Source of the DNA: Mangrovimonas xylaniphaga
GTDB taxonomy: Bacteria; Bacteroidota; Bacteroidia; Flavobacteriales; Flavobacteriaceae
Reading direction: 5' to 3'
Length of the DNA stretch: 64,000 nt
Assembly (NCBI RefSeq): GCF_001280435.1
Contig: NZ_LBIP01000013.1
Location: forward strand, 1,364,001 to 1,428,000
This document shows, one piece after another, positions 9,898 to 45,424 of the stretch. Below the pieces are notes generated by a model. That model was not told where the DNA came from. It made no database searches and worked only from the letters and a program-made list of their open reading frames with translations. The translations under genes and the position numbers were made by a program. Position 1 is the stretch's first letter; every line of letters begins with the position of its first letter.

Positions 9898-9908
9898 AAT
9901 CCTTTATG

Positions 9909-11387: not shown

Positions 11388-11434
11388 CTTTTGTTTGGGT
11401 TAGCGACTCATTAGTAACCAATATACCTAAAATG

Positions 11435-30085: not shown

Positions 30086-30240
30086 ATTATTTAAGTACTT
30101 AAATATTTCACAAAAATAATTAATTCAGCCAACCATGAAGCTTATGATTTAAAAATTAAATTTCTCTTCCATAACAAAAACAGATTGATATTTCCGTATA
30201 ATTCGCGATATAGCAACTAAACTATTTAACAAATTAGGTT

Positions 30241-31002
30241 TTAACTTTTAAAATAACTTATGTTCCACTTCAATATAAATTTGACTATACTCGAAATATT
30301 CCATAAGTTATATTTACTAAAAATATTTTTAGCACTTGTTTCATTAAGATGATGAGTAATTTCAGCCCCTGAGAAACCAATTACTTTTAAACCCCTTTGA
30401 TGTGATTCAAAACATATATCAATATCTTCACAATATAATCGATACCTTTCATCCAATAATGTCTTATCACTTTTCAAAAGACGACTACTTATTAACATAC
30501 AGGCTCCAAGACACCAATCAATATTTGGTCCCTCCATAAATTTTTCATTTTTTGATTTGAGCACACCTGTTCTTTTTAAAATAACTTGTCTAAAATTAGG
30601 AAAGCTCTTCCAAGAAATTTGCAATTCTCCGCTTGGGTATTTTATAACCGGACATATAATACCTATGGATTCATTCTTTTCCATCTCTTCATAAAGAGGA
30701 CTTATAAAGTCTTCTTCAAAATAAGTGTCTGGATTTAACAACAAATAACATTTTGAATCTAAATTAAAATGTCTAATTAAATCATTATTGTTTCTTGAAA
30801 AACTTTCTAACTTATCCTTTTTTAAAACATTAGAAGCATATGGGCTATCTAGTAAAATCTCCGCTGTTCCATCTGTGGATAATGCATCACAAAAAAATAC
30901 TTTATCGACACCTATCCTCAATAAAGAATCTATCAGCTTTTGAATGTATTCTACATGATTATGAGTTACAACTAAAACATTCACATCCTTATTAAAACTC
31001 AT
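30241..31002 (-). CDS. Glycosyltransferase family 2 (rhamnosyltransferase-like)
   Basis: A 253-residue GT-A transferase, short and without membrane segments. NVLVVTHNHVEYIQKLIDSL opens the fold, DALSTDGT is the nucleotide-binding turn, LLLNPDTYFEEDF has the DXD-like metal site and CEDIDICFESHQRG the catalytic ED motif. The pattern resembles WbbL-type rhamnosyltransferases, which fits the rfbBACD genes in the same locus, but donor identity is inferred. It overlaps the upstream GT4 by 11 bp. The 155-bp gap downstream (30086-30240) is AT-rich and holds only a possible TATTTTTG element for the next gene. Confidence 0.85.
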   Translation of the reverse strand: MSFNKDVNVLVVTHNHVEYIQKLIDSLLRIGVDKVFFCDALSTDGTAEILLDSPYASNVLKKDKLESFSRNNNDLIRHFNLDSKCYLLLNPDTYFEEDFISPLYEEMEKNESIGIICPVIKYPSGELQISWKSFPNFRQVILKRTGVLKSKNEKFMEGPNIDWCLGACMLISSRLLKSDKTLLDERYRLYCEDIDICFESHQRGLKVIGFSGAEITHHLNETSAKNIFSKYNLWNISSIVKFILKWNISYFKS

Positions 31003-32041
31003 GAACTATAATATTTTCAATTTTATTCATAAAACCCTCAAAACAATAATTTTTCAAATAAGTTTCTCTACATTTTTCTTTTAAACTAATAAGCTCTTCA
31101 TTTTGACCCAACCAACTCAAGGCTTTGTCAAACCCACTCAAATCCTCACCTATCACACTTGCTACTCCCAAATTCAGTAAATCTTCAATAACCACTTGGT
31201 TGGTACTTATAATTGGAAGCCCATTCATTAATGCTTCAATATAAACCAAAGGATAAACTTCATAATTTTCATCACTTAAAAAAAGTAAAACATCACTTTC
31301 TTTTAAGATTTCATTTTTTTCCTTTTCATCAGATATAGGACCATTATATTTAAAGAAGGAATATCTCAAACCCAATTCCCTGACATCCAAGAGATCATTT
31401 TCAGAAAGTGCGCCTCCAAACACATTCAATTCACAATGAACATTTTTATCGGATAATTCCTTACATATATCTCTTAATCTACCAACTCCCTTTTCCTTTG
31501 AAAGGTTAGATATAAAAATAAAACGAATTCCTAATTCTTTTTTCACTGATAGTCTATCACCACAATAATTATCAGGAAGTGCATTGGGCACTAAAAAAAC
31601 ATTATCACAAAATGGAGATATTAATTCCATTTGCCTTTTATTGATAACGATAATTTTGGACTTAGCAAACAAATGCCTGTTATAAAAGCTTATTTTCTTT
31701 TCCAACCCATTAGCATGGATATGAAGTGTAATATTCTCAGTTCTTTTAAAACAACAAAACAAAAGTATCAAGTCCCTATAATACGCAAATCCTTTAGGTG
31801 TGATATTTAAATAGACAACATCTTCGTTTGAAATACTATATATTTTCTTGAGAAGAGAAAATATATTCATCACCTTTTTAAAACTGAATTTCCCAAAACT
31901 ATTAAAGTTGTTTGCTTGAGCAGTATCAATTTTCCTCAAGATAAATTTATACCTTTCCAAAAACCCATGAAAAATAAAGTTTGAAATAACCTTTACACCA
32001 TTATTAGGTCCAGACAAAGGAAAGACAAAAAACAACTTCAT
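30992..32041 (-). CDS. Glycosyltransferase family 4
   Basis: A 349-residue GT-B transferase. The N-domain begins KLFFVFPLSGPNNGVKVISN; the C-domain has FIFISNLSKEKGVGRLRDI, LNVFGGALSENDLL and the donor site EVYPLVYIEALMNGLPIIST with the EX7E pattern. The protein is rather divergent and very Lys/Asn/Ile-rich because of the low GC. I chose ATG at 32041 rather than a TTG two codons upstream (32047). A good promoter lies at 32151-32184, so this gene may start a transcription unit. Confidence 0.87.
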   Translation of the reverse strand: MKLFFVFPLSGPNNGVKVISNFIFHGFLERYKFILRKIDTAQANNFNSFGKFSFKKVMNIFSLLKKIYSISNEDVVYLNITPKGFAYYRDLILLFCCFKRTENITLHIHANGLEKKISFYNRHLFAKSKIIVINKRQMELISPFCDNVFLVPNALPDNYCGDRLSVKKELGIRFIFISNLSKEKGVGRLRDICKELSDKNVHCELNVFGGALSENDLLDVRELGLRYSFFKYNGPISDEKEKNEILKESDVLLFLSDENYEVYPLVYIEALMNGLPIISTNQVVIEDLLNLGVASVIGEDLSGFDKALSWLGQNEELISLKEKCRETYLKNYCFEGFMNKIENIIVHEF

Positions 32042-32150
32042 ATTCAACTATTTAAAAAATCAGATAACAAAAATTCTTTTATATAGTGAGTAAGAAAGAT
32101 GATATCATGTTTTGGCTATAATTTCGTGGCAATTTATTACAAATTTTAAG

Positions 32151-32184
32151 CAAATTTACATTTATTAAATTTTTAAGCTAACAA
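32151..32184 (-). promoter_or_regulatory. Candidate promoter inside the polysaccharide locus
   Basis: On the minus strand TTTG/TTG (ending at 32182), a 23-bp spacer and a perfect TAAATTTG (32158-32151) match the Bacteroidota consensus. The 168-bp gap 32048-32215 has no gene. It would drive the GT4 and GT2 genes downstream with a leader of about 100 bases. Confidence 0.5.
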
Positions 32185-32215
32185 AGCCGTTTAAAAACTT
32201 TTGATATTAACTCAG

Positions 32216-33442
32216 CTAATAACAAACTTTATTTGAAATTTTCAATTTACTCAAAATAGGAACAATTAAAAAAAACAGCAAATTAACACTTGGCTCATAA
32301 AAGAAGCCTCCAGATATAAATGCCATAGTGAAAATAGTCACCACAAAAAGAATATTGAAACTATCTTTAAAATCAAACCTTAAAAACCTTCTATAAATAA
32401 TAGCGTAAATACATAAGCCCACAACTCCAAAAAAAAGATATAGGTCAATCAAATCCATTCCAGAAATGTATAAGTAATCTTGAAAACTACCGCCTCCAAT
32501 AAAATAATTAGATAAACTCCAATGTGGACCAACATAAGATTTGAATGTTTCCACCAACTTATCATTCCTATATGACGTCAAACTGGATAAAAAACCGTTC
32601 TCTTCATATATCTTATAAAATAACCTAAAAATCTCTATTGCAAAGACCTTAAGCTTCTCATAAAATAAAATAGTAAATATAGAACCAGCTATACCAATAA
32701 ATACAAGAACCTTTTTTCTAGTGAGTTTCGAGGTTAACAGATGATAAATTAAAAAGACAGGGATAAAAAAGAATATCTTCTTAGTGCCTACTAAGAATGA
32801 AGATAAAATCAATATGGATAGTTTAATTAAATCCAATTTATTGAAATTTATCATTAACCTTCTATAATAGTAAAACAATAAAATAATAAAGTAGTAGCTT
32901 GTTTGACCACTCTTACCGAAAAAACCATTGTACCCTAATCTTGAGCCATAATAATAAGTTTTAAAAAGATCTGACCCCGTTAGAAATCCATAGAATATAA
33001 AAAAAACATTAATAAAGAAGATAACTTCAAAAACAACTAAGGCTTTATTTAAATAATCACCCTTTCCAATTAGTGGATAAAAAACAACACAGAAGATTGG
33101 AAAGTATAAGTATTTTCCCAAAAATTCCAAATTTTGTGTAAAGTTTTCAATTCTATCAAGCCCTATTAAAAAAAATTGTCCTAAGACATATATACCAATT
33201 AAAATTAAAATATATAAAACCAGCTTTTTTTGATTGATATAATTTTTCCAATAAATAAACACAAAGGATATCATTAAAACTAGAGCAATTATTTTAGATA
33301 ATGTCGTGTATTTATAAAATACCCATTCAAAATGATGAGCAATCTTTCTTAAAGCATCCCCTAAATAAAAGAATATTATTATAAAAATAAATAAGGTGTA
33401 ATTCCATATCTCAAATTGACATCTAAACTTAGTCTCCATCAT
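32216..33442 (-). CDS. Polytopic membrane protein, polysaccharide polymerase-like
   Basis: A 408-residue protein with about 11-12 membrane helices and a large periplasmic loop near 280-340 (SLTSYRNDKLVETFKSYVG, GGGSFQDYLYISGMDLIDLY). The short loop pattern RND near a Gly-rich stretch and LIDLYLFFGVVG is typical of Wzy/O-antigen-polymerase-like proteins. Sequence too divergent for a firm family; EpsG/Wzy or ligase are the options. Two further proteins of the same general type follow upstream on the same strand. Confidence 0.65.
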   Translation of the reverse strand: MMETKFRCQFEIWNYTLFIFIIIFFYLGDALRKIAHHFEWVFYKYTTLSKIIALVLMISFVFIYWKNYINQKKLVLYILILIGIYVLGQFFLIGLDRIENFTQNLEFLGKYLYFPIFCVVFYPLIGKGDYLNKALVVFEVIFFINVFFIFYGFLTGSDLFKTYYYGSRLGYNGFFGKSGQTSYYFIILLFYYYRRLMINFNKLDLIKLSILILSSFLVGTKKIFFFIPVFLIYHLLTSKLTRKKVLVFIGIAGSIFTILFYEKLKVFAIEIFRLFYKIYEENGFLSSLTSYRNDKLVETFKSYVGPHWSLSNYFIGGGSFQDYLYISGMDLIDLYLFFGVVGLCIYAIIYRRFLRFDFKDSFNILFVVTIFTMAFISGGFFYEPSVNLLFFLIVPILSKLKISNKVCY

Positions 33443-33459
33443 TTACTAATAAAATATCT

Positions 33460-34728
33460 CTAATTATTAAGCACATTGGTTTGACTTTTTGACAAATCTT
33501 TCCAAACCAAAGGCAAAAAAAAGGAAAAAAATACGATACCCTTATTTAACTCTAGAATTGTTTCTGTTATTGAAACACCAAAAAGAATAAACACCAAAAA
33601 TAGACCAAGAAAATTTTTATTTTTAAGAAACACCCAACTAGACAATAACAATATAAATAAGAAATACATACCTATAATGACTCCAAACTTGAGTATTTCC
33701 TCTAAATATTGGTTATGAGGGTTGAAAACTTTACCAAGCTTATTCATCATATACAGTAAAGGGCCATAATCCTTTTCAATATATAGCTTATTAAGTTCAT
33801 TCTGAACCATTTTTGATGACCCATAACCAAACAAAGGCTTGCTTTTTAGTAAATCAATACAACTATCCCATATTAAAAATCTAACACCTCTACCACCCCA
33901 GACTTTTTCAATATTATAGTTATTGTTATAATTAAAAGATTCAAGTAATCTTTGATTTAATGGTTTTGTAAAGAACAAAATTAGGGACAGCCCTGTTATG
34001 GTTATGGCAACCAATAGAACTTTCTTTCTTAAGTATGGAAATTTCCATACCAAATGAACCAATAAAACTACCAATGTAATAAAGGTCAATAGCCATACAA
34101 TTCTGGATGACAATAAAATAATGTAAAAAAATGTTACTGCACTCATAAACAAAAGGATTCTCCTAATTCTTAGTTCAGTAACACTTCGATAATAAAATAT
34201 TGGATATGACAAGGAAAACAACAAATACATGCTCAAATAAGTTGCATGTAAATTTATGTGCATAGAAAATCCGTGATTTACAAACGTGGATGTATCATTA
34301 ACTGATAAATAATCTTTGATTGCAAATAAAAAACATATAGAAGCTGCGACAAAGCCTGCATAAAAGAAAACCATTAATATCTTTCTCCTGGCTAGATAAT
34401 CTGGTTTTATGAAAACCATTGCAATAGGGATAATAACAAAGGATAACTTCTTTTCAAGATCATTGGTAATTCCATTTATTGGAATGTCATAAAAAAAACC
34501 TAGAAAAATTAAAGCATAGAAAAAAAGAAAAAGTAATACGTAATCTTGTCTTAAAATAAAACTCCATCTAGAAAAGCTACTCTCTTTAATAATCATTACT
34601 AACATCAAAATAGTTAAGATATTAGTAAAAATCATTGGAAGAAATATTGCTAAAGGAAACAAATAAAATAAATTTTCATATTTGAAAACTATACCTTTCC
34701 AAAAATCAATCTTAATTGCCCATTTCAT
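33460..34728 (-). CDS. O-antigen ligase/polymerase family protein (Wzy_C-like)
   Basis: A 422-residue protein with about 12 membrane helices. The large periplasmic loop (about 255-340) carries GGRGVRFLIWDSCIDLLKSKP, GYGSSKMVQNEL and NPHNQYLEEILKFGVIIGMY, which is the O-antigen ligase (Wzy_C) pattern with the conserved His in PHNQYL. It probably joins the finished glycan to lipid A core or polymerises repeat units. It overlaps the next upstream gene by 17 bp. Confidence 0.82.
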   Translation of the reverse strand: MKWAIKIDFWKGIVFKYENLFYLFPLAIFLPMIFTNILTILMLVMIIKESSFSRWSFILRQDYVLLFLFFYALIFLGFFYDIPINGITNDLEKKLSFVIIPIAMVFIKPDYLARRKILMVFFYAGFVAASICFLFAIKDYLSVNDTSTFVNHGFSMHINLHATYLSMYLLFSLSYPIFYYRSVTELRIRRILLFMSAVTFFYIILLSSRIVWLLTFITLVVLLVHLVWKFPYLRKKVLLVAITITGLSLILFFTKPLNQRLLESFNYNNNYNIEKVWGGRGVRFLIWDSCIDLLKSKPLFGYGSSKMVQNELNKLYIEKDYGPLLYMMNKLGKVFNPHNQYLEEILKFGVIIGMYFLFILLLSSWVFLKNKNFLGLFLVFILFGVSITETILELNKGIVFFSFFLPLVWKDLSKSQTNVLNN

Positions 34729-36031
34729 AATTTATCTTCGATTTAGAACCTTTATTCAAATAATAATCATTGAATACCAATAATTCAAAAATTATGATTA
34801 TCGAGAAATATTCATACCAGTAATCTAACAAGAAATACCCTAGTAAAACAATCAGCATAAACTTAGAATAGGTAAGATACTTACCATTTCTAACAAAAAA
34901 ATTAATATAAAAAACCAAGAATAAGCATATCCCAACCAGACCATACTCTCCAATAATTTTATTATAGAATGAAAATGGTTGGTTTGCAGTATTATTAATA
35001 TTATCCCAGGGATTTCTAAAATCATGTTTCCATATTCCAAAATGATGATCTCCAAACTCGGGTGATACATAGCTTATAGAGTTAGGATACCAACTTACAT
35101 AATCACCGGAAGTTATAAATGCAGTTCTTGAAGAAAAATTCCCCCCCCCCGCACCAAAGATAAAGGAGTCAACAGAGCTAGTCCAATAATCAAAGGTTTG
35201 CCAAAACGATTTTATTTTATATGGTGTATTTTCATCATTTTTAATAATTCTCGTTATATATCTCGAAGCATATGTAACATTGGTTGGGGATATCTCTTTA
35301 AAAATAAATAAAAAACCTATTCCAAAAAGAAGAATTAAAAATTTGTATTTCAATTGTATCTTAGAAAAGAAATAAATACTAACCAATAGCAGACCTAAAA
35401 AAATAACTAAACCACTCATATAGGTAGTCATTATTAGAACAATTGTAGCAGCCAAAGCTTTCTTCCATTCCTTTTTCATGAAATACATTAAACAGAAGAA
35501 AGACATGACTATTAAATTAACAGATGAGTTACTATAAATAGATTTAATAAAGTCTCCTGCCGAATTAGAAACACTATATGGGTTAATCGATTTAAATTCG
35601 AAAACAATTAAAATATATTGTATTACAACAAAAAAAATATTGAAATAAAAGAACAAATTAATTGTTTTTTCAATTTTAATCGGGTCATTTATTTTAAAGA
35701 AAAAACTTATTTGAGCCAAGGCACAAAAACTAAAAACCCAGAAAAAAAGCACCATCAAATAACTAGGTAAATATGAAAAAGTTTCAAAAAACAAATTGAA
35801 ACTCCCATATAAAATATGATAGAGAATTATTGTGAAATAAAATAAATTAAGATAATGAACTGTTAAAAAAGCTTTTGTTCTATATAAAAGGATAAAAATT
35901 AAACCTAGAAGTTTCAATTGAAGATTTCCTTGTACGGCCAAAATCAAAAAAATTAGAAAAGGAAAATCTATTTGCCAATTCTTAGGACTTTTGTGAACTT
36001 TGGAAAACTTATTTATTACATTCAAAGTCAT
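34712..36031 (-). CDS. Wzy-like polysaccharide polymerase with poly-G tract
   Basis: A 439-residue protein with about 11 membrane helices and a long periplasmic loop (about 255-350) containing YASRYITRIIKNDENTPYK, FGAGGGNFSSRTAF and the segment PFSFYNKIIGEYGLVG. The topology and loop motifs fit Wzy-type polymerases, which link repeat units in the periplasm. Codons 294-297 are encoded by ten consecutive G (35141-35150), in frame in this sequence; a change of one base would truncate the last third. The gene overlaps its neighbours by 17 bp and 23 bp, so such a shift would also affect coupled translation. Confidence 0.75.
   Translation of the reverse strand: MTLNVINKFSKVHKSPKNWQIDFPFLIFLILAVQGNLQLKLLGLIFILLYRTKAFLTVHYLNLFYFTIILYHILYGSFNLFFETFSYLPSYLMVLFFWVFSFCALAQISFFFKINDPIKIEKTINLFFYFNIFFVVIQYILIVFEFKSINPYSVSNSAGDFIKSIYSNSSVNLIVMSFFCLMYFMKKEWKKALAATIVLIMTTYMSGLVIFLGLLLVSIYFFSKIQLKYKFLILLFGIGFLFIFKEISPTNVTYASRYITRIIKNDENTPYKIKSFWQTFDYWTSSVDSFIFGAGGGNFSSRTAFITSGDYVSWYPNSISYVSPEFGDHHFGIWKHDFRNPWDNINNTANQPFSFYNKIIGEYGLVGICLFLVFYINFFVRNGKYLTYSKFMLIVLLGYFLLDYWYEYFSIIIIFELLVFNDYYLNKGSKSKINYEMGN
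35141..35150. repeat. Homopolymer of ten C (ten G in coding strand)
   Basis: Exactly ten C on the plus strand, flanked by T and G, in a gene and region with very low GC. It encodes the last base of Ala294 and three GGG glycine codons, which are rare elsewhere in these genes. Long G:C runs are prone to slipped-strand mispairing. Confidence 0.95.
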
Positions 36032-36995
36032 AAACTGGTAGTATTTTAGCTAAAGTTGAATTGTGACTACCAACATACAAGTGACAATTGGAATTTCTTA
36101 AAATAACATTTTGATAAACCTTAAAATAGTCCTCCATTGTCACCCCTCCCCTATCTTTCATCAGGTTTTTATCTACCGTTGGGTGTATGTTATTTTTGAA
36201 TTCCTTAACGTTATCAAAATGCCGTGTCCTTAAAATATTTATTTTATCATATATTTTCTCATGTGGATAACAATCACTTTTAATTTCAGAGTTAGTAAAG
36301 TAGTTTCCTCCATTCAAATCGATTCCAAGCATTACAATTTTTTTGTAACCTAAAGCCTGGGCAAACATTACAGCACAGCCTATATGACTATTATGGTGGA
36401 CAAGAGATTGCATTGTTAATCCCCCCTTTTTAGAAAAGAGATTATTTAAATACTTTTCAAGAACACCTGGATAAATAGTTGGTAGTAATTTAGGTATATG
36501 CACATACATATTTTTTTTATGTCCATATGTACTCAAATCAAATCCACTTTTAATTACATGCTTGTATTGAAAAAACATATCTACATTTGTAAACCTATCT
36601 TTAGTCACATCACAAAAGAAAGATTGCATCTCCCTTAATGGTATCATCTCCATTAAATGGTAATCAGGAATAACAGGATGGACAAAAGAATAATTAAGTC
36701 CTATTATATTATTTCTTTTAATTTCTTCCCAGTCCTTTTTTGTTAATTCATTAATAGATTCTCCACTACCTAGAATGAATACGGTATCAGATTTCTTCTT
36801 CTTATCAACATAACTAGTTACATTCTTATACCTTTTCAATTTAGCATGCACCTTAAAAAACAGCTGCTTTACCTCAGATTCAGAATACATTTGTAAAAAT
36901 TCCCTCCCTTCTTTGGTTCCAAAAATATTTTGATTCTTTATCAAAAATAGAAGAGATGAAAGTCTGCCTAGGTAATGAAAAATAATGTTTGTCAT
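36009..36995 (-). CDS. GT42/MptE-like protein, candidate CMP-sugar transferase
   Basis: A 328-residue protein. VFILGSGESINELT (72-85) is the glycine loop, followed by IIGLNYSFV and PDYHLMEM. Residues 201-229 (HNSHIGCAVMFAQALG, YKKIVMLGIDLNG) closely resemble the central motif of Campylobacter Cst sialyltransferases (GT42; also the related DUF115/MptE-like fold). His271 in NNIHPTVDK may match the GT42 catalytic His, and CHLYVGSHNSTLAKILP resembles the C-terminal motif. A CMP-sugar synthetase lies three genes away. Thus a transferase that uses a CMP-activated acidic sugar is inferred. Family placement is from recalled sequence patterns, not a search. Confidence 0.6.
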   Translation of the reverse strand: MTNIIFHYLGRLSSLLFLIKNQNIFGTKEGREFLQMYSESEVKQLFFKVHAKLKRYKNVTSYVDKKKKSDTVFILGSGESINELTKKDWEEIKRNNIIGLNYSFVHPVIPDYHLMEMIPLREMQSFFCDVTKDRFTNVDMFFQYKHVIKSGFDLSTYGHKKNMYVHIPKLLPTIYPGVLEKYLNNLFSKKGGLTMQSLVHHNSHIGCAVMFAQALGYKKIVMLGIDLNGGNYFTNSEIKSDCYPHEKIYDKINILRTRHFDNVKEFKNNIHPTVDKNLMKDRGGVTMEDYFKVYQNVILRNSNCHLYVGSHNSTLAKILPVYDFECNK

Positions 36996-38404
36996 TAAAG
37001 CCTCTTTAAAATTTTAAAAGTATTTATTAATGTGAATATTAAAACTAGCATAGTTAATAGTGCTTTTGTTACAACCCCAGAATCTTTAAATAAATAACAA
37101 GTTACCAATAGTAAACACGTATAAAAAATCCACCTCAATGGGTAAAATTCATAGGGGTACAGTTCTTTAAATTTAGTAATATAAAAACCTGCATAACCTA
37201 TAAATAAGAATGCAAAAAATGTTGTAATGACTGCTACTTCATAACCATAAATTGGAATCAAAATAACGTTAAGAATAATATTTACTATTCCTGCAATAAA
37301 TGAAATTTTCCAAAATTCCTTTGTTTTTTCATAATAATAAAAAACAGCTGCCATTGCTGTATACATAGGTTTATAAGCATATGACATAGTTAAAATTACC
37401 CCTATTCTATATGAATTAACCAAATCATCATTTTTTACCATTAAATGAAAAATTTCCTTTAGCCATAAGGCTAATAAAAATGAAACAAACATGACAACAT
37501 AGTTTTCTAGAAAGATTATGCTTTTTAAAAAATCTGTTTTATTATTTCTCTTAAAATCTTTTATCAAGAGAGGTGTTGACGCTTGATGGATACTTTCTGA
37601 AAAAACTCGAGCATAGCCAGCAAATTTATAAGCAAAATCATAAGCACCAATATTCGCTGTACTTACATTCAATTTTAACATAACTAACCTATCTGAAAAA
37701 TCGAGTAAGAAAAAAGCACTGGTATGTGGCACTAAAGGCAATGATAACTTTAAATGCTTTTTAAGAGCGGCTTTTCGAAACAAAAAATTAGGTAACAACC
37801 TTAATTTTATCCATATAGGATATATCAAAGAAAGAAACATAAAGGTTTCAGAAATAAAATTACTCCATATCCAACCTAAATATCCTAACCTTAAAATTGC
37901 TATAAAATAATAATTAAGACCAACTGTCATAATTCCAAAAAATAAGGCTCTAATACCTATCTGAATTGGTTGCTCTGCTAACTGATAATATTTTTGAGAA
38001 ATGATTTGAATTGAAGAATAAAATATTATTGGAGCTATCGTTAGAGCTATTACTTTTCCAATATTTTTAGCCGCTTCAACAGGAAGGATAAAATACAACA
38101 AGAAACTTGTTATTACTCCTAATACAATAGCCCAGCAAAAAATAAACCCTTGTATTTCATTCCAAATAATTTTGAATCCTCTCCCGTGAGAATGATGAAT
38201 AAAACTATTCATTAGAATTATTTCTAAACCTAAAGTCTTAATAACCGTGATTCCTGTAACTAAAGAAAAGATTATACCATATATTCCATAATCTACATTT
38301 GTTAGAAAAGGTGTTATAAATGGTAATATTAAAAACCCCATTAAAATGGGAAGTTTTGGTAAAATAGCGTAAATGAAGGAATGACTAATTATTTTTTTGA
38401 TCAA
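36995..38404 (-). CDS. Polysaccharide flippase (Wzx-like)
   Basis: A 469-residue MATE/MOP-type transporter with 12-14 membrane helices that moves undecaprenyl-linked repeat units across the inner membrane. It opens IKKIISHSFIYAILPKLPIL, has the conserved LSLPLVPHTSAFFLLDFSDR near the middle and GAYDFAYKFAGYARVF after it. The start is TTG at 38404: a TAG lies three codons upstream and no ATG occurs before residue 22. It overlaps the next gene by one base and lies 14 bp after the HAD gene. Confidence 0.88.
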   Translation of the reverse strand: MIKKIISHSFIYAILPKLPILMGFLILPFITPFLTNVDYGIYGIIFSLVTGITVIKTLGLEIILMNSFIHHSHGRGFKIIWNEIQGFIFCWAIVLGVITSFLLYFILPVEAAKNIGKVIALTIAPIIFYSSIQIISQKYYQLAEQPIQIGIRALFFGIMTVGLNYYFIAILRLGYLGWIWSNFISETFMFLSLIYPIWIKLRLLPNFLFRKAALKKHLKLSLPLVPHTSAFFLLDFSDRLVMLKLNVSTANIGAYDFAYKFAGYARVFSESIHQASTPLLIKDFKRNNKTDFLKSIIFLENYVVMFVSFLLALWLKEIFHLMVKNDDLVNSYRIGVILTMSYAYKPMYTAMAAVFYYYEKTKEFWKISFIAGIVNIILNVILIPIYGYEVAVITTFFAFLFIGYAGFYITKFKELYPYEFYPLRWIFYTCLLLVTCYLFKDSGVVTKALLTMLVLIFTLINTFKILKRL

Positions 38405-38418
38405 AACGAGCTATTCTT

Positions 38419-39048
38419 TTAAATGACAACCTCACTAAAGGCCTCTATATAGTTATGGGCTCTCGCCTTTAAAGATATATTGTTATATGCATAAAAGGTA
38501 ATATCATTGCTTTGAGCAGCTTCCAAATCATTTATAGAATCTCCTATCAAACAAATGCAGCTTCTTTGATATCTGTATTGTTCTAACAAATTTTTAACTA
38601 ATTGCTTTTTTGGAGTGGGAGAACCGTGAATAGAAATAAAATAAGGAGTTAAACCCAATTCTTTGCATAGAAATCTAAGCTCTTCTTGATCTGATCCAGA
38701 AACAATATGAAAATTATATTTTTGGTAATTCTCTTTGATAAAATTTACCGAATCCACTATCAAATTCTTAGGGTTGGTCAGCTCTTGCTTCATTAATCCA
38801 GAAAACTCCTTTGCATATGCCATGACTCCTGCTTCCGAAATCTCTTTACCTAAAATTTCTTCATAGAAGTGCCTAATTTTCACATAACGAGAAAGCCCTC
38901 CATTGATTCTATGATATTTCATTAATTGCGATACCTGATCACTTGAGAAGTCTTTAAATATTTCTTCAAACCCCCAATCCCTAACTGACATAGAATCTAA
39001 AATAACACCATCAAAATCCCACAATATAGTCTTCATTATAGTCTTCAT
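38419..39048 (-). CDS. HAD-superfamily phosphatase of the ulosonate cassette
   Basis: A 209-residue Cof/PGP-type HAD hydrolase with a helical cap. Catalytic Asp motif DFDGVILDS (about 10-18), motif II FHIVSGSDQEELR, Lys in SPTPKKQLV and motif IV IGDSINDLEAA. The likely substrate is a phosphorylated sugar acid, by analogy with KdsC or NeuB-pathway phosphatases; this rests on position between the CMP-transferase and the flippase. Met1 (39048) or Met5 (39036) could be the start. Confidence 0.87.
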   Translation of the reverse strand: MKTIMKTILWDFDGVILDSMSVRDWGFEEIFKDFSSDQVSQLMKYHRINGGLSRYVKIRHFYEEILGKEISEAGVMAYAKEFSGLMKQELTNPKNLIVDSVNFIKENYQKYNFHIVSGSDQEELRFLCKELGLTPYFISIHGSPTPKKQLVKNLLEQYRYQRSCICLIGDSINDLEAAQSNDITFYAYNNISLKARAHNYIEAFSEVVI

Positions 39049-39058
39049 TTAATTCTGC

Positions 39059-39730
39059 CTAGTTTACAAATTTGTGCCTATAAATCATTTCTCCCAATAA
39101 AAAGTCATCCGGCCAATCTATATCCACACTTTCAAAACCATTAGTCACATACAAAAAAGGGTGTTTTCCTATTCTATCCCCATATTTAATATAATTTTGT
39201 CGTGTATTTATAAAAAATCCACTATTGACTTCAAAAATCAATGGAAGTGTTTGAGTTCTTGGCCATTTTTCAACATCTCTATCATAGTTTATAGGTCCAT
39301 TCTCATCCCATAAAAAAGTCTGAATTTTATTGACTGTCATCAAACTGTCAAACTGATCTTCAATAAAAAACTTCTCTATAGCTCTTTCAAAAGTAACTTC
39401 CGCAATAAAAGGAGATGTTACATGTGTCCAAAGAATATGTTCATCATCTATAATAGTAGGCACATAATTTATTAATTCATCGGTACTTGTTTCAGAAGTC
39501 GCCAAGTGCTCTGGTCGAAAATCTATTTCGATTTTCGAACTATTAAATGATTTCGCAATTCTAATTACTTCAAAATCGTTACTAGACACTACTATTTTAT
39601 CAATATTTGAAACATTCAAAAGCGTTTTAAGCTTAATCGTTAACAAGCCTCCTTTTATTCCTGCAAAATCCTTAGTGTTTTTATTGGGAATTCTTTGACT
39701 GCCAGATCTACATGGAAGAAATACCGTCAT
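39059..39730 (-). CDS. CMP-sugar synthetase (acylneuraminate cytidylyltransferase family)
   Basis: Activates a 2-keto sugar acid with CTP to CMP-sugar + PPi. The 223 residues match the NeuA/KdsB-like fold: FLPCRSGSQRIPNKNTKDFA (P-loop-like CTP site with the conserved Arg and Lys), IVVSSNDFEV, LWTHVTSPF, WPRTQTLPLIFEVNSGFFI and VDIDWPDDF (metal-binding Asp). Sialic acid, legionaminate, pseudaminate or Kdo-like substrates are all possible; no NeuB-type synthase is nearby. It lies 1 bp from the aldolase fusion gene and 10 bp from the HAD gene, clearly one unit. Confidence 0.85.
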   Translation of the reverse strand: MTVFLPCRSGSQRIPNKNTKDFAGIKGGLLTIKLKTLLNVSNIDKIVVSSNDFEVIRIAKSFNSSKIEIDFRPEHLATSETSTDELINYVPTIIDDEHILWTHVTSPFIAEVTFERAIEKFFIEDQFDSLMTVNKIQTFLWDENGPINYDRDVEKWPRTQTLPLIFEVNSGFFINTRQNYIKYGDRIGKHPFLYVTNGFESVDIDWPDDFLLGEMIYRHKFVN

Positions 39731-39731
39731 T

Positions 39732-41273
39732 TCACAAAAAACTATATAATGAAACTACTTCCAAATTTTGATATTTTGTAGGCGTAAAAGTCTTTATTGT
39801 AACACTTTCAATATTGACGGCATCATCAATGACTTGTTGATTTTCATTAGCAATCACGAATTGGTTTTGATTCATGTTCACATCGTATCCATCAAACCCT
39901 ACAAAGTATAACTCCTCTGCTCCTAAATCTATGGCCGCTTGTATAGCAATTGCCATAGGAGAATCGGTAGTAACTTTCGTAAATTCAATACTGTGAAGTT
40001 CCTTGGCCAACTTATAAATATCTTCTGAAATCGAGGTTCCCATAGGTCTTGGAAATGGGGGATACACACAAGTGATTGTAGCAGTAGCACCGTTTGGAAT
40101 CTCCTTTAAAATTTTATCACTTTCAGAACCTACCAAACCAAAAACTTGGTCACAAGCTACACTAGCATATTCTTTAATATTTCTTGCCCCTGCATGAATG
40201 AGTATTGCCTCATTTTGTGGGTTTTCAAGAAATTTCTGAATAGCCACTTTATGGTCTCTAGCTGTTTTCCCTCCACCAAGAATAATTGCCTTTGCATAAC
40301 TATTAGACTTTTCTAAAACCGGTAATTTCAAGTTATCCTCTAACTCCTGTTTTTGATTATTCAATGCGTTAATAATATGGCCAAGTGGGTATCGGTTCAT
40401 CCCCACCCATTCCATCACTTGTTTTTGAGGTAACGATTTGGCACCAGAAAACATATACGGCAAACTAGTCCCCCATTGATATTGCTTTCTAAGTTCTTCA
40501 AACTCATGAACCACTTTACTTAAATATCTATAAGAAACCGGTAATTTTCTTGAGCTCTCAAGATATGTCAGCAATAACTCTGTTTTTAGGTTACCTGCTC
40601 CTCTACCCATTCCTGTAATCGTGGCATCTACAATTTCACATCCTTCCTGCAAAGCTGTAATGGTATTAATCAAAGCCATTTCTAAATTATCATGGCCATG
40701 AAACCCTAAAGGCACTTGAGTTTTAGACTTTACCAACTGAACTATTTCCTTAACATCCTCTGGCATTACACCTCCATAAGAGTCTACCATATAAAAATAA
40801 TCAACAGTATTCTCCAAACCTTCGAGCGAATCCAAAAAAGAACCGTCATTCTTCCAATTGGACATATACATAACATTGAATGCTACTTTAAATCCTTCAG
40901 CTTTCACCACCTTAGCCAATTCAATTGCCCTTAAAATATTTTTTGGATCAATTGCCATTCTCACCATGGACACGTATGGTTTTGCACTTTCCAACAAACC
41001 ATTTTGCACATGCTCAACTCGAATATCCTTCTCATTTAAAATGATTGTCAACTCCTTAGATGGCATTAATGTTTTCAGCTGCCTTAATACATATTCAGGA
41101 CAATAATAATACTGGCCTAAATATCCTTTCAAAGGAATGCTTCTGTAGCCAACTTCAACATAATTTATTGGTAAATTTTCCATGGCAATGGCATATTCCT
41201 CGACCAATGCTTCATCAAAATCCCAATTAGTATAATACCCCCCATCTCGAAGGGTACATTCGAGTAAAATCAT
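39732..41273 (-). CDS. HMGL-type aldolase fused to GT42/MptE-like domain
   Basis: A 513-residue two-domain protein. Residues 1-315 form a DRE-TIM metallolyase/aldolase: LLECTLRDGGYYTNWDF (3-19, catalytic Arg9 and metal ligand Asp10), GFHGHDN with metal-binding His192 and His194, and GMGRGAGN at 221-228. It is closest in pattern to 4-hydroxy-2-oxovalerate aldolase and HMG-CoA lyase, which make or break C-C bonds of pyruvate or acyl-CoA. Residues 325-513 are a separate Rossmann-like domain: AIILGGGKTARDHK, then DSPMAIAIQAAIDLGAEELY and FVGFDGYD (437-464), the same pattern as the GT42/MptE-like protein at 36009. Inferred role: condensing pyruvate with a sugar aldehyde to give a 2-keto-3-deoxy acid for the CMP-transferase. 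Confidence 0.7.
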   Translation of the reverse strand: MILLECTLRDGGYYTNWDFDEALVEEYAIAMENLPINYVEVGYRSIPLKGYLGQYYYCPEYVLRQLKTLMPSKELTIILNEKDIRVEHVQNGLLESAKPYVSMVRMAIDPKNILRAIELAKVVKAEGFKVAFNVMYMSNWKNDGSFLDSLEGLENTVDYFYMVDSYGGVMPEDVKEIVQLVKSKTQVPLGFHGHDNLEMALINTITALQEGCEIVDATITGMGRGAGNLKTELLLTYLESSRKLPVSYRYLSKVVHEFEELRKQYQWGTSLPYMFSGAKSLPQKQVMEWVGMNRYPLGHIINALNNQKQELEDNLKLPVLEKSNSYAKAIILGGGKTARDHKVAIQKFLENPQNEAILIHAGARNIKEYASVACDQVFGLVGSESDKILKEIPNGATATITCVYPPFPRPMGTSISEDIYKLAKELHSIEFTKVTTDSPMAIAIQAAIDLGAEELYFVGFDGYDVNMNQNQFVIANENQQVIDDAVNIESVTIKTFTPTKYQNLEVVSLYSFL

Positions 41274-41385: not shown

Positions 41386-42642
41386 CTACACCACCATCCC
41401 GGCAGCAACAGTTTCATTGGTTGCATCATCTACTAAAATGATGCTTCCTGTTGCTCTATTTTCCCGATAAGAATCCACCATTAAAGGCTTTGTAGTACGT
41501 ATTTTAACTTTGGATATATCATTCATATTTAGCTCCTTGTCCTCTTCGTTTCTCGCCAAGGTATTGATGTCTATTTTATAAACAATTTCCTTGATCATTG
41601 CCTTTTGGTCATTTGAGGTGTGTTTAATTGTGTATTTCGCCCTTGGTTTGGCTGCACTATTGTTTAACCAACAAAGCATCACCTCGATGTCCTGAGAGGC
41701 CTCAGGCATATTATTGGAACGTACAATCATATCTCCTCTACTAATATCAATATCATCTTCCAAAGTCATAGAAATGGACATAGGCGCAAAGGCCTCTTCT
41801 ACGGAACCATCAAATGTATCCAAGCTTTTGATTTTAGAAGTAAATCCAGAAGGCATCACTGTAACCTCATCTCCTGCTCTAAATACACCACTGGCAACAC
41901 GACCAGCATAGCCTCTATAATCTCTATTGTCATCATCACTCTGTGGCCTCAAAACAGTCTGTACCGGGAAGCGGGCATCCACTTTATTCACATCGCTACT
42001 GATGTGCAAGGTTTCCAAGGTATGCAACAAAGGGGCACCTTGATACCAATCCATATTCTCAGATCTATTCACAACATTATCTCCTAAAAGCGCAGAAATT
42101 GGAATAAAACGAACATCCTTTACCAACATTTTAGAAGAGAAATCTTCAAACTGAGTAATAACATTATTATACGCCTCTTCAGAATAATCCACCAGATCCA
42201 TTTTGTTAATACAAACAATCACATGCGGAATCTGTAATAGTGAAGCAATGAATGAATGACGTCTCGTCTGCTCAATAACACCATGTCTGGCATCCACCAA
42301 AATAATGGCCGCATTGGCTGTTGAAGCTCCCGTAACCATATTTCGAGTGTATTGAATATGCCCTGGTGTGTCAGCGATAATAAACTTACGCTTTGGTGTA
42401 GTAAAATATCTATAGGCTACATCAATGGTAATTCCTTGCTCGCGTTCGTCGCGTAATCCATCAGTAAACAAGGCTAAGTCAACACCTTCATGTCCCTTCT
42501 TCCTACTTGTATTTTCAATGGCTTCCAGCTGGTCTTCAAAAATGGATTTTGAATCGTACAAAAGTCTTCCTATCAAGGTACTTTTCCCATCATCTACACT
42601 TCCAGCAGTTGTAAAACGTAATAATTGATTGCTATCTAACAT
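41386..42642 (-). CDS. cysN: Sulfate adenylyltransferase, GTPase subunit
   Basis: With CysD, converts ATP + sulfate to APS, driven by GTP hydrolysis. The 418-residue EF-Tu-like protein has G1 GSVDDGKS (14-21), G3 DTPGH in FIIADTPGHIQYTRNM, G4 NKMD and two beta-barrel domains. It is not fused to CysC, and is shorter than the E. coli protein (475). It lies 54 bp after cysD; a 112-bp gap with a small inverted repeat (41286-41301) separates it from the aldolase gene. Confidence 0.95.
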   Translation of the reverse strand: MLDSNQLLRFTTAGSVDDGKSTLIGRLLYDSKSIFEDQLEAIENTSRKKGHEGVDLALFTDGLRDEREQGITIDVAYRYFTTPKRKFIIADTPGHIQYTRNMVTGASTANAAIILVDARHGVIEQTRRHSFIASLLQIPHVIVCINKMDLVDYSEEAYNNVITQFEDFSSKMLVKDVRFIPISALLGDNVVNRSENMDWYQGAPLLHTLETLHISSDVNKVDARFPVQTVLRPQSDDDNRDYRGYAGRVASGVFRAGDEVTVMPSGFTSKIKSLDTFDGSVEEAFAPMSISMTLEDDIDISRGDMIVRSNNMPEASQDIEVMLCWLNNSAAKPRAKYTIKHTSNDQKAMIKEIVYKIDINTLARNEEDKELNMNDISKVKIRTTKPLMVDSYRENRATGSIILVDDATNETVAAGMVV

Positions 42643-42696
42643 CTTTTATTGTTTCTTTATTTGAATACTGAATTTTCTTCAGTAATACTTTAATTT

Positions 42697-43602
42697 TTAA
42701 AAATATCCTTGACGTTTACGGTCTTCCATAGCCGTTTCGGAACGCTTATCGTCACTTCGGTTACCTCTTTCTGTTTGGCGCATAGCCGAAACTTCCAAAG
42801 CAATTTTTTCCAACGTATCCGCATCACTTTCAATACCTCCCGTAATGGTAATATCTCCTAAAGTTCTAAAACGGATTTTCTTGGTTACAATTTCTTCGTG
42901 TTCTTCAACAATCAAAAATTCAGAATTAGGAATCCAAGAATTATTACGCCAAATCACCTCTCTTTCATGAGCATAGTACAATGACGGAATTTCAATATTT
43001 TCTCGCTTGATGTAATTCCAAACATCCATTTCAGTCCAGTTACTAATTGGAAACGCTCTAAAATGTTCTCCTTCGAAGTACTTTCCATTGAAAATGTTCC
43101 ACAGCTCTGGACGTTGGTTCTTAGGGTCCCATTGTCCAAAATCATCTCTATGTGAAAAGAAACGCTCCTTAGCTCTTGCCTTTTCTTCATCACGACGTCC
43201 ACCTCCAATAGCACAGTCTACTTTGTGTTCTTCTATGGCATCCAACAAAGTGGTTATTTGAAGGGCATTTCTAGTGGCATTTTTACCACGTTCTTCTGCA
43301 ACGCGTCCTTGGTCAATAGATTCCTGTACTGATCCTACAATCAGGTTTACACCCAATTCTTTTATTAAATCGTCTCGGAATTTTATGGTTTCAGGAAAGT
43401 TGTGTCCTGTATCAACGTGCATTAAAGAAAATGGCACCTTACAGGGGTGAAATGCCTTTCGTGCCAAATGGGTTACCACTATGGAATCCTTTCCTCCAGA
43501 AAATAAAATTACTGGGTTCTGAAATTGTGCCCAAACTTCACGTAGCACAAAAATGGCTTCACTTTCTAATTCGTCCAGGTAATTTAAATAGTACTTACTC
43601 AT
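42697..43602 (-). CDS. cysD: Sulfate adenylyltransferase, catalytic subunit
   Basis: Catalytic ATP-PPase partner of CysN. PP-loop SGGKDS at 35-40, then HVDTGHNFPETI, GGGRRDEEKARAKER and the conserved C-terminal GNRSDDKRSETAMEDRKRQG with the typical final GYF. The 301-residue length is normal. It overlaps cysC by 8 bp. No cysH, cysI or cysJ is adjacent, so the APS/PAPS produced here may serve sulfation rather than cysteine synthesis. Confidence 0.97.
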   Translation of the reverse strand: MSKYYLNYLDELESEAIFVLREVWAQFQNPVILFSGGKDSIVVTHLARKAFHPCKVPFSLMHVDTGHNFPETIKFRDDLIKELGVNLIVGSVQESIDQGRVAEERGKNATRNALQITTLLDAIEEHKVDCAIGGGRRDEEKARAKERFFSHRDDFGQWDPKNQRPELWNIFNGKYFEGEHFRAFPISNWTEMDVWNYIKRENIEIPSLYYAHEREVIWRNNSWIPNSEFLIVEEHEEIVTKKIRFRTLGDITITGGIESDADTLEKIALEVSAMRQTERGNRSDDKRSETAMEDRKRQGYF

Positions 43603-44197
43603 TGTTGAGCTGTAATTTAGGTGTTATGTAATCAATAATCCGTTGGGCGGCTGCTTCAACTGATTCTTTTTCTGTTAATATTTCAATATCCGGATTTTCT
43701 GGAGCTTCATAAGGAGCTGAAATTCCGGTCATATTTTTGATTTCTCCTGCCCTCGCCTTTTTATAAAGTCCCTTAACATCACGGCGTTCACATTCTTCAA
43801 CGCTAGTGTTGATATAAACCTCAACAAAGTTAACATCTTTGAGGACTCTCTTGATGTTTTCCCTATCTTTTTTATAGGGTGATACAAAGGCTGCTAAAAC
43901 CACTAAACCGGCATCCACCATTAAATTGGCTGCCTCGGCTATTCGGCGAATATTTTCGGTTCGGTCTTCAGGTGAAAAAGTAAGGTCATTATTCAAGCCT
44001 TTTCTAATGTTATCACCATCCAATGTATAGGTTTTGATTCCATTTTTAAACAATCGCTGTTCAACTACATTAGCAATGGTAGATTTTCCTGAGCCTGACA
44101 GTCCCGTGAACCACAATAAAAAAGAATTATGGTTATTAGAATTTCTTCTGTCTTCAACTGAAATCTGATAATCGTGGGCAATGATGTTCTCTTTCAT
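43595..44197 (-). CDS. cysC: Adenylyl-sulfate kinase
   Basis: APS + ATP to PAPS, the universal sulfate donor. The 200 residues have Walker A GLSGSGKS (32-39), DGDNIRKGLNNDLTFSPEDR (APS site), FVSPYKKDRE, EVYINTSVEECERRDVKGLY and the ISAPYEAPENPDI loop. It lies 3 bp after the DUF2061 gene and overlaps cysD by 8 bp. Presence of the kinase makes PAPS, not APS, the end product of this cassette. Confidence 0.96.
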   Translation of the reverse strand: MKENIIAHDYQISVEDRRNSNNHNSFLLWFTGLSGSGKSTIANVVEQRLFKNGIKTYTLDGDNIRKGLNNDLTFSPEDRTENIRRIAEAANLMVDAGLVVLAAFVSPYKKDRENIKRVLKDVNFVEVYINTSVEECERRDVKGLYKKARAGEIKNMTGISAPYEAPENPDIEILTEKESVEAAAQRIIDYITPKLQLNNE

Positions 44198-44200
44198 ATC

Positions 44201-44629
44201 CTATTCATTAGTTCTTTTTGGAAGTCCAAAATTAATTTTGTACCAAGTACGCTCATGCAAATAATACAATAGCATTTTGGTAACAACTTCAACAGACGCA
44301 ATTTTAAAACCTGTTAGGGGATTTCCAGTTACTATCCAAGCTAATGTCATTGTATCTATAGTCCCAACCATGCGCCAAGTAATCGTCTTTGCTATATGAC
44401 GCTTTCTGCTCTCTAGAATCTTCCCATCTTTGGAAAGGTTAACTTTAAACCAAACCCGTTCATGTAAAAAGTACAAGACCATTTTGGTAATAACTTCATA
44501 AATACCAATCTGTAGACCAATTAAAGGGTCTCCAGAGATAATCCATGATAGTAGTATCGTATCAATGGTACCAACAAGTCTCCAAGTAACCGTTTTAGCT
44601 ATATGTCTTTTGTATGAGGTGTCCTTCAT
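44201..44629 (-). CDS. Tandem DUF2061 membrane protein
   Basis: A 142-residue protein made of two similar halves of about 63 residues. Each half has a K/R-HIAKT(V/I)TWR start, (L/M)VGTIDT, two membrane helices, and a YFLHER or YYLHER end. DUF2061 genes are often seen beside sulfate-activation genes. The short spacing to cysQ (adjacent codons) and cysC suggests a role in sulfate transport or in holding the PAPS enzymes at the membrane, but no function is established. Confidence 0.85.
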   Translation of the reverse strand: MKDTSYKRHIAKTVTWRLVGTIDTILLSWIISGDPLIGLQIGIYEVITKMVLYFLHERVWFKVNLSKDGKILESRKRHIAKTITWRMVGTIDTMTLAWIVTGNPLTGFKIASVEVVTKMLLYYLHERTWYKINFGLPKRTNE

Positions 44630-45424
44630 CTATTTGCTAACCAAGAAATAGCTATTTAACAAATTTTCCTTGTTATACTGCAAAGACTCATTGGTTTCCT
44701 TTGAAATGACCTGCAATCCTACAGCATTGCAAATGGCCTGTCCCGCCGCTGTATCCCACTCCATTGTTGGAGCATAACGAGGATAAACATCCGCCGCTCC
44801 CTCTGCAACCAAACAAAACTTTAATGAACTTCCCTTTGAAACTATCTCCACATTTATACCTTCAGCCTTTAAACTTTCAACAAAATCCAAAGTATCTTGA
44901 TTCATATGCGATCGACTTCCTACAACCTCAACAACATCCGAATCTTTAGTTTTAGGTTTTAAAGGAGTGGCCAATTCAAACACTGTTTCAACATCGGTAA
45001 TATGGGATTCCAGTTTTGCCTTAAAGGCCTTTTTGGAATCTACATCGGCATAGTAAATGGTTTGTTCTGCAGGAACATAAATAACTCCCAACACAGGCTT
45101 TCCTTCCTTTACCAATGCAATATTCACAGTAAACTCACCATTACGCTTTATAAACTCTTTGGTGCCATCTACAGGATCAACCACCCAACAAGTAGACCAA
45201 TCCTTTCTTATTTCAAAGTCAACTTGTTTATTCTCTTCACTGATAATAGGAATTTGGGTAGGTATCAAAAATGAATTGATAACACTATTGGAACGTTTAT
45301 CAGCCTCCGTAAGGGGAGATTCGTCTTCCTTGTATTCAACTTCAATTTTGGAATCGTAAATTTCCATAATTGCTTTACCTGCTTTCAAGGAAGCTTTTAT
45401 TGCTGTTTCTAAAAGTTCTTTCAT
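44630..45424 (-). CDS. cysQ: 3'(2'),5'-bisphosphate nucleotidase
   Basis: Removes the 3' phosphate of PAP, the by-product of PAPS-dependent sulfation or reduction. The 264-residue inositol-monophosphatase fold shows metal-site motifs ISEENK, WVVDPVDGTKEF (DPxDGT) and MEWDTAAGQAI near the C-terminus. It overlaps the rfbD stop by one base, so rhamnose and sulfate genes share a transcript. Its presence matches heavy use of PAPS. Confidence 0.94.
   Translation of the reverse strand: MKELLETAIKASLKAGKAIMEIYDSKIEVEYKEDESPLTEADKRSNSVINSFLIPTQIPIISEENKQVDFEIRKDWSTCWVVDPVDGTKEFIKRNGEFTVNIALVKEGKPVLGVIYVPAEQTIYYADVDSKKAFKAKLESHITDVETVFELATPLKPKTKDSDVVEVVGSRSHMNQDTLDFVESLKAEGINVEIVSKGSSLKFCLVAEGAADVYPRYAPTMEWDTAAGQAICNAVGLQVISKETNESLQYNKENLLNSYFLVSK

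Follow-up and report, generated by a model that had tools for sequence, protein, structure and literature searches.

Cytidine monophosphate (CMP)-activated ulosonates, among them those of 3-deoxy-D-manno-octulosonic acid (Kdo) and of sialic, legionaminic and pseudaminic acids, decorate bacterial surfaces. To our knowledge, the known routes to them begin with a phosphoenolpyruvate (PEP)-dependent synthase. This is KdsA in the CMP-Kdo pathway (KdsA, KdsC, KdsB) and NeuB in the nonulosonic acid (NulO) pathways for sialic, legionaminic and pseudaminic acids (NeuB with NeuA or PseF), across which NeuB is the only conserved gene according to a passage in PMC7371886. Here we describe a five-gene cassette in a 64,000-nucleotide stretch of the Mangrovimonas xylaniphaga genome (assembly GCF_001280435.1, contig NZ_LBIP01000013.1, positions 1,364,001 to 1,428,000 of the forward strand; hereafter the window), in which the gene for a CMP-sugar cytidylyltransferase adjoins that of a DRE-TIM aldolase. 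Judging from its genes and their relatives, the cassette probably serves to produce a 2-keto-3-deoxy sugar acid and to activate it for use in a surface polysaccharide. What would be new is a CMP-ulosonate pathway with a synthase of a different superfamily. The comparisons below support the original prediction of an aldolase-based route to a CMP-sugar acid.

The cassette runs from 41273 to 36009, all on the minus strand. Its open reading frames (ORFs) lie where the original prediction had put them, and ORFs and Pfam matches agree with the five adjacent genes it had named (aldolase, CMP-sugar synthetase, HAD enzyme, Wzx and GT42-like protein):

39732..41273, minus strand: aldolase-MptE/GT42-like fusion, 513 amino acids, with an HMGL/DRE-TIM aldolase domain at residues 1-308 (ORF; PF00682, HMGL-like, 4.5e-23) and an MptE/GT42-like domain at about residues 322-513
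39059..39730, minus strand: CMP-sugar cytidylyltransferase, NeuA/PseF-like, 223 amino acids (PF02348, CTP_transf_3, 3.5e-13)
38419..39048, minus strand: HAD-family phosphatase, 209 amino acids (PF00702, 2.1e-15; PF13419, 1.5e-14)
36995..38404, minus strand: Wzx-type flippase, 469 amino acids (PF01943, Polysacc_synt, 9.3e-11)
36009..36995, minus strand: stand-alone MptE/GT42-like protein, 328 amino acids, candidate CMP-ulosonate transferase (MptE-like, PF01973, 0.0045, below the cut-off)

The intergenic gaps in transcription order are 1, 10, 14 and -1 bp, and 112 bp separate the aldolase gene from a cysN-like gene upstream. The HAD phosphatase, whose translation contains DFDG and GDS motifs, is the recurrent third gene of the cassette at the other loci compared. 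The cassette is part of a surface-polysaccharide locus, with a Wzy_C protein, two glycosyltransferases and a WcaJ-type transferase near it in the window (profile matches).

With the NulO pathways the cassette shares a predicted activation with cytidine triphosphate (CTP) by a NeuA/PseF-like enzyme near flippase and glycosyltransferase genes, but the window genome has no NeuB match and a DRE-TIM aldolase takes its place. The CMP-Kdo pathway is similar in the proposed order of synthase, phosphatase and cytidylyltransferase, and in the KdsB-type enzyme that many cassettes contain. In contrast to that pathway, no KdsA is found at 86 bacterial loci, the cassette KdsBs fall under the kdsB equivalog cut-off, and the window HAD enzyme scores 17.8 bits on the KdsC model, whose cut-off is 106.95. 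These 86 loci are the best 80 of at least 563 relatives in a species-genome collection, ranked by aldolase similarity, together with the window and five family loci. A one-pot CMP-sialic acid synthesis with an aldolase and a CMP-sialic acid synthetase, described in an excerpt of PMC7729866, has the same logic of a pyruvate aldolase followed by CTP-dependent activation; it is a laboratory method with sialic acid aldolase, whereas the arrangement reported here is genomic and its aldolase belongs to another superfamily. The parts of the cassette are already annotated, a copy on a Leisingera plasmid bearing the names 'aldolase catalytic domain-containing protein', '3-deoxy-manno-octulosonate cytidylyltransferase' and 'HAD family hydrolase'. 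We found no name for the route as a whole, and no description of cassette or route in the openly licensed literature as judged from titles and abstract openings.

The 513-residue protein yielded an AF2 model that is good throughout (predicted local distance difference test, pLDDT, 94.2; predicted template modelling score, pTM, 0.88). Residues 1-308 matched 3dxi, the N-terminal domain of a 'putative aldolase' of Bacteroides vulgatus, with a Z score of 44.7 and 51-52 % identity. This protein, BVU_2661, belongs to the same family as the window aldolase and was deposited as its N-terminal domain only; a search of the openly licensed literature for its locus tag found no paper. The next structural ranks were taken by DmpG-type 4-hydroxy-2-oxovalerate aldolases (Z 30.5-31.7), and after them came homocitrate and isopropylmalate synthases, with Z scores reaching 26.7. 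Among enzymes whose reaction is known, pyruvate aldolases come nearest in profile as well as in fold. R9, D10, H192 and H194 are present in 50 of 50 homologues and N228 is likewise invariant; by analogy with DmpG-type enzymes we take D10, H192 and H194 to be ligands of a divalent metal. The domain thus has both the fold and the R-D and HxH metal-site residues of the HMGL-like/DRE-TIM enzymes. The motifs TLRDGG, HGH at 192-194 and GMGRGAGN, on which this assignment had originally been based, are at the positions given and are invariant or nearly so in the 50 homologues.

The enzyme shares the TIM-barrel fold and the R9/D10/H192/H194 set with the DmpG-type aldolases and differs from them in several respects. 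It scores 83.9 bits on the DmpG family model against a cut-off of 286, which leaves it outside the named family, it has another C-terminal domain, and no acetaldehyde dehydrogenase was seen among the genes scanned around it. Furthermore, the His after RDG, presumably the catalytic residue of DmpG-type enzymes, aligns (as the His of 8ih7) with Tyr13, which is found in 50 of 50 homologues. By these comparisons the N-terminal part classifies as a DRE-TIM aldolase-like enzyme outside the DmpG family.

The original prediction had held that the cassette makes do without a NeuB or KdsA synthase. For NeuB this stands, as a profile search with PF03102 found no match in the window genome (completeness estimate 100). 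KdsA, on the other hand, is present once in that genome (C5:462595), about 0.94 Mb from the cassette and with a separate KdsB; the genome also has one DAHP-synthase-like gene (DAHP, 3-deoxy-D-arabino-heptulosonate 7-phosphate). CTP_transf_3 genes number two in this genome: that of the cassette, and a KdsB gene located on contig C10. In three other genomes (G049, G033 and G111) every NeuB was adjoined by a cytidylyltransferase, KdsA was matched by KdsB, and the aldolase by an enzyme of its own; a separate KdsB was present in all five genomes examined. We encountered no case of a NeuB or KdsA elsewhere that pairs with the cassette CMP-transferase, a finding that the prediction had named as fatal to it. 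A partner synthase elsewhere in the genome thus found no support, given the missing NeuB match and this bookkeeping of KdsA and KdsB, and was set aside. At the loci themselves, where five of the 86 bacterial ones had only 1.5 kb of flank, KdsA occurred in 0/86 and NeuB in 13/86, and a NeuB-like gene was seen in 5 of 62 viral loci.

The pairing of aldolase and cytidylyltransferase recurs widely. Gene neighbourhoods, whose comparison had been proposed with the prediction, showed a cytidylyltransferase near the aldolase in 77 of the 86 bacterial loci (73 of 83 from the locus scan, plus L047, L048, L051 and L073). Among the nine misses, the contig ends at or just past the aldolase in L021, L025, L053 and L061, and L078 has a KdsB 3.3 kb away. 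The cytidylyltransferase is the direct neighbour of the aldolase in 59 of 83 loci, and 56 of these 59 pairs overlap or are separated by at most 12 bp. A HAD enzyme lies near at least 47 of 82 aldolases, that of L060 having been missed by the model and found by Pfam. When 395 genomes were drawn evenly from the phylum as a second sample, 10 of them gave 11 aldolase matches, and a cytidylyltransferase and a HAD enzyme were found within four genes in all 10 intact copies (the weak cytidylyltransferase of L207 was confirmed as CTP_transf_3); the eleventh match, L202, lies close to the edge of a contig and is broken. Seven of the 10 intact copies are new; the other three are the window, which is common to both samples, L195, identical to L032, and L199, identical to L022. 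Within the family, an aldolase match was obtained in 6 of 149 sampled genomes, the weakest being L007, where BLAST found the aldolase domain only. By record titles, the aldolase is borne by Bacteroidota, Proteobacteria, Pelagibacteraceae and others. The two bacterial controls, single-domain relatives on plasmids of Priestia (H8) and Mesorhizobium (H4), had no cytidylyltransferase within 5 kb.

The identity of the cytidylyltransferase is not constant. The window enzyme lies above the PF02348 cut-off and matches the PseF model TIGR03584 at 4.9e-19 (68.8 bits, cut-off 205.7). Among 82 aldolase loci, the partner is NeuA/PseF-like in 39, KdsB-like in 35 and carries neither label in 8. When these labels were placed on the aldolase tree, a quick maximum-likelihood tree in which long branches meet (L054, L083), they required 19 changes, of which well-supported branches force at least 11. 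Shuffled labels gave 25 changes on average and 5 of 500 shuffles were as low as 19; the observed scatter is below that of most shuffles, so the partner label follows the tree loosely. The 82 rows omit aldolases shorter than 480 residues (L021, L061) and L047, L048 and L051, in which a longer reading frame had masked the ORF; they take in one viral-contig locus (L088) and count both L006 and L043, whose aldolases are identical. The window itself, of NeuA type, is sister to L003, of KdsB type, with a support of 99 and 72 % identity between the aldolases.

The cassette KdsBs also stand apart from their namesakes. All seven that were compared (6 bacterial, 1 phage fusion) exceed the cut-off of the CMP-Kdo synthetase subfamily PRK13368 (255 bits), and all seven score 127-152 on the kdsB equivalog, below its cut-off of 155.2, whereas the separate KdsBs of the five genomes score 180-200, above it, in every case. 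On these scores the cassette enzymes are related to, yet distinct from, the KdsBs that accompany KdsA. KdsB and NeuA enzyme types both activate 2-ulosonates, and their interchange beside one aldolase points to an ulosonate product, probably other than Kdo itself.

Viral contigs provided a further form of the association. Of 62 such contigs, 40 encode the aldolase and a KdsB domain as a single polypeptide, mostly of 537-589 residues; after clustering at 90 % identity this holds for 22 of 39 clusters:

Fusion-bearing viral contigs: L089-L094, L096-L118, L120-L127, L129, L135, L148

A stand-alone MptE/GT42-like gene is found at the same locus in 26 of these 40. L128 and L133 have separate genes for the GT-like domain, the aldolase and KdsB, one directly after another in that order, and in L131 a single gene intervenes between the GT-like domain and the aldolase. 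The module of aldolase, CMP-transferase and MptE/GT42-like domain is thus joined differently in different hosts. Phage genes lie near the fusion in the two contigs checked (a DNA polymerase in L112, an exonuclease in L091). It may be that phages bring with them a route of their own to a CMP-activated sugar acid; this claim rests on IMG/VR contigs, because a collection of named phages gave no match that covered 80 % of either the aldolase or the fusion. The original prediction had left room for an aldolase of central metabolism. We considered and rejected this role, given the company of cytidylyltransferase and HAD genes in many lineages and the fusion to KdsB in viral contigs.

Glycosyltransferase genes stand beside the fusion in the contigs examined for them (L091, L105 and L112). 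In L112-L114 and L135 (11033-11881 and neighbours) the fusion is accompanied by NeuA-like and NeuB-like genes, two putative CMP-ulosonate routes side by side. L139-L147 carry, around 8000-12200, a distant single-domain HMGL aldolase beside a gene of about 600 codons and one of 424-470 codons, with no cytidylyltransferase; in L139 the former encodes a thiamine-diphosphate enzyme and the latter matches phosphoribosyltransferase. This arrangement is apparently another system.

A further element of the module is the MptE/GT42-like domain. The C-terminal domain of the fusion and the 328-residue protein resemble GT42 (CstI, CstII), Maf and MptE in predicted fold and in G-x-G-P-S and G-x-D motifs, and differ from GT42 in that PF06002 is not among the Pfam matches of the window proteins; the 328-residue protein is only a candidate transferase. 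PF06002 found 0 of 296 genomes of the phylum above its cut-off, Pfam gave no match on the aldolase C-terminus (about 322-513), and the 328-residue protein scored 17.2 bits on the MptE-like model, below the cut-off of 34.6. Alignment of the families of the two proteins by hhalign gave 97.4 %, six control alignments remaining at or below 1.5 %. Against nine MptE-like relatives of the same phylum, collected separately with the Pfam model, the values were 95.8 % for the fused domain and 99.5 % for the stand-alone family, within a range of 95.8-99.8 % across the three domain alignments. The profile comparisons and their controls support the membership of both in a broad MptE/GT42-like superfamily, a kinship that the original prediction had drawn from a motif common to the two. 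Reading of both sequences showed that this motif is real, with the spacing A-x-x-L-G-x7-G-x-D instead of the x4 given.

Comparison with known structures was less uniform. The fused domain was assessed by profiles, the TIM barrel having filled the Foldseek and VIA lists of the whole protein. Its profile placed CstI/CstII in the first three rows of the PDB search (E 0.042-0.052), above malate dehydrogenase (0.14), MptE (0.2) and Maf (0.96), a suggestive order in which no match is significant alone. The profile of the stand-alone family reached MptE at 3.4e-6, CstII at 7.7e-6, CstI at 1e-3 and Maf at 1.1e-3; its set, A3, was built by iterated search within the study loci and could drift, and a plain search with the 328-residue protein gave only L017 (4e-16) and L018 (6e-7) as clear matches. 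The model of the 328-residue protein is of low confidence (pLDDT 58.8). The ten structures that VIA ranked highest against it are all bacterial sialyltransferases (Z 10.6-11.5), nine being entries for CstI or CstII; Maf (Z 7.1) and MptE (Z 6.5) scored lower, and Foldseek put CstI first (E 0.03). One Tyr of CstII, which we take to be a CMP contact, aligns with Y463 of the fused domain (Tyr in 43 of 50 sequences, Phe in 6) and with no Tyr in the stand-alone family. On present comparisons the GT42-like protein is a candidate for the CMP-ulosonate transferase.

Two kinds of neighbouring gene bear on the product. A PfkB kinase adjoins the aldolase-cytidylyltransferase pair in L007, L024, L031, L077 and L130; that of L024, the one examined, is nearest to fusions of 2-keto-3-deoxy-6-phosphogluconate (KDPG) aldolase with a kinase and to 2-keto-3-deoxygluconate/2-keto-3-deoxygalactonate (KDG/KDGal) kinases, with scores under the respective cut-offs. 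At five loci in four genomes (L206 and L207 are one genome), the genes of the HMGL aldolase and the cytidylyltransferase flank one for an HpcH/HpaI aldolase:

L014:9537-10247, HpcH/HpaI aldolase
L018:9547-10266, HpcH/HpaI aldolase
L204:9760-10476, HpcH/HpaI aldolase
L206:7889-8599, HpcH/HpaI aldolase
L207:8343-9119, HpcH/HpaI aldolase

HpcH/HpaI enzymes also act on pyruvate, and both kinds of neighbour fit 2-keto-3-deoxy acid chemistry. The PfkB kinase stands where the HAD phosphatase often lies (L024:10240-11268).

In the route that we propose, the aldolase domain, with a divalent metal, would form the enolate of pyruvate and join it to a sugar aldehyde that probably carries a phosphate. Once the HAD enzyme has taken off this phosphate, the NeuA/PseF-like enzyme (KdsB-like elsewhere) would make the CMP-ulosonate. 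The GT42-like protein may then move the ulosonate to a lipid-linked repeat unit, to be exported by Wzx, and the fused C-terminal domain would either perform the transfer or hold the labile CMP-sugar or its precursor. The data show the genes with their domain homologies, their repeated occurrence together, the swapping of cytidylyltransferase types and the aldolase-KdsB fusions; from these we infer which way the reaction runs, that pyruvate is the donor, what the aldehyde is, how the steps follow one another and that there is a transferase activity. Extended beyond the window, this becomes a widespread modular route with a metal-dependent pyruvate aldolase and no PEP-dependent synthase, whose three modules are permuted in bacteria and phages such that a labile CMP-ulosonate is made and passed on within one assembly; we advance this extension tentatively, with confidence a little short of even. 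CMP-Kdo is unstable according to a passage in PMC12887879, and channelling would hence be useful.

Several observations weigh against the aldolase route. NeuB is found somewhere in 22 of 32 aldolase-bearing genomes, with 10 of 32 giving no match (G111 and G166, both counted, look like one genome). No cytidylyltransferase was found at the loci L050, L059, L063 and L064, no HAD enzyme was labelled at 35 of 82 aldolases, and neither a cytidylyltransferase nor a GT domain accompanies the aldolase in 11 of 62 viral loci, so that the association is not universal in the wider aldolase family. Unlabelled ORFs at the same loci also had a cytidylyltransferase within -2 to +4 genes in 300 of 903 cases, a control biased by loci centred on the cassette; because of this bias, the association rests on direct adjacency, the fusions and the second sample. 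The mechanism may differ from that of DmpG-type enzymes, since the position of their catalytic His is an invariant Tyr13. Finally, a second aldolase lies beside the HMGL enzyme at the five HpcH/HpaI loci, so that the key bond at these loci may be the work of another enzyme, or the HMGL enzyme may not be the sole former of carbon-carbon bonds.

Other explanations of the same genes have to be considered. The aldolase could run in reverse, or serve in salvage or quality control by cleaving an ulosonate, with the activated sugar coming from KdsA or from outside the cell. Aldolases are reversible, the window genome does have a KdsA, and the PfkB neighbour in L024 is nearest to kinases (KDG/KDGal) that are catabolic elsewhere. 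Nevertheless, the absence of KdsA from all 86 bacterial loci, the separate KdsB in five of five genomes and the position of the operon among Wzx, Wzy and glycosyltransferase genes argue otherwise, and viral aldolase-KdsB fusions are more sensible for synthesis of a CMP-sugar than for its breakdown; we consider this explanation quite improbable. It is also rather unlikely that the HMGL domain is a different carbon-carbon enzyme, either a Claisen-type synthase or an aldolase with another 2-oxo acid, that yields a non-sugar 2-oxo acid or a branched ulosonate. The rank of homocitrate and isopropylmalate synthases directly after the DmpG-type aldolases, Tyr13 in place of the catalytic His and the second aldolase at five loci would suit such an enzyme, but its nearest relatives of known reaction are pyruvate aldolases by profile and fold, and the two cytidylyltransferase types that partner it both activate 2-ulosonates.

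A third alternative concerns the last step only and is compatible with the aldolase route. The C-terminal domain and the 328-residue protein could be MptE-like nucleotide-binding or diphosphotransfer proteins and not glycosyltransferases; MptE transfers diphosphate. The stand-alone family is at least as near to MptE as to CstII by profile, aligns at 99.5 % with the Pfam MptE-like relatives and has not kept the CstII Tyr that we assume contacts CMP. Against this, the sialyltransferases lead MptE by Z 10.6-11.5 to 6.5 in the low-confidence model of the 328-residue protein, and the domain accompanies CMP-sugar genes in the loci studied. We regard this alternative as doubtful, yet a real possibility.

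Surveys keyed on NeuB or KdsA would overlook the cassette. If the aldolase route holds true, acidic surface sugars of a whole class have so far escaped notice, both in Bacteroidota, Proteobacteria, Pelagibacteraceae and others and in fusion-bearing viral contigs. Synthesis of CMP-activated sugar acids would also gain an enzymatic route that needs no PEP.

The surroundings of the cassette contain, besides the genes mentioned above, an rml set, an inositol-monophosphatase-family gene and genes of sulfate-activation type, which encode a GTPase (GTP_EFTU), a protein with a PAPS_reduct domain and an adenosine 5'-phosphosulfate (APS) kinase. The cysN/cysD/cysC-type genes and the inositol-monophosphatase-family gene (window 41386-45424) are directly upstream of the cassette and suggest a supply of 3'-phosphoadenosine 5'-phosphosulfate (PAPS), perhaps for a sulfated polysaccharide. 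The end of a similar cysN-like gene, recognized by eye, precedes the aldolase in L004. Downstream of the cassette lies a further group:

32216..36031, minus strand: three large hydrophobic proteins in tandem, one with Wzy_C and the other two without a Pfam match

A different gene order recurs in L060, L075 and L082: first the aldolase, then genes for proteins of 336-342, 256 and 261-273 residues, KdsB and a protein of 604-609 residues. In L060 the product of the second gene in this order is an LdpA-like iron-sulfur protein and that of the third is a HAD enzyme. At window 44201-44629 we noted a 142-residue protein that contains a tandem pair of DUF2061 copies. In 2-kb bins, the GC content is 27-29 % across 30-38 kb of the window and 31-42 % elsewhere, and this low GC at 30000-38000 resembles that of exchangeable polysaccharide regions.

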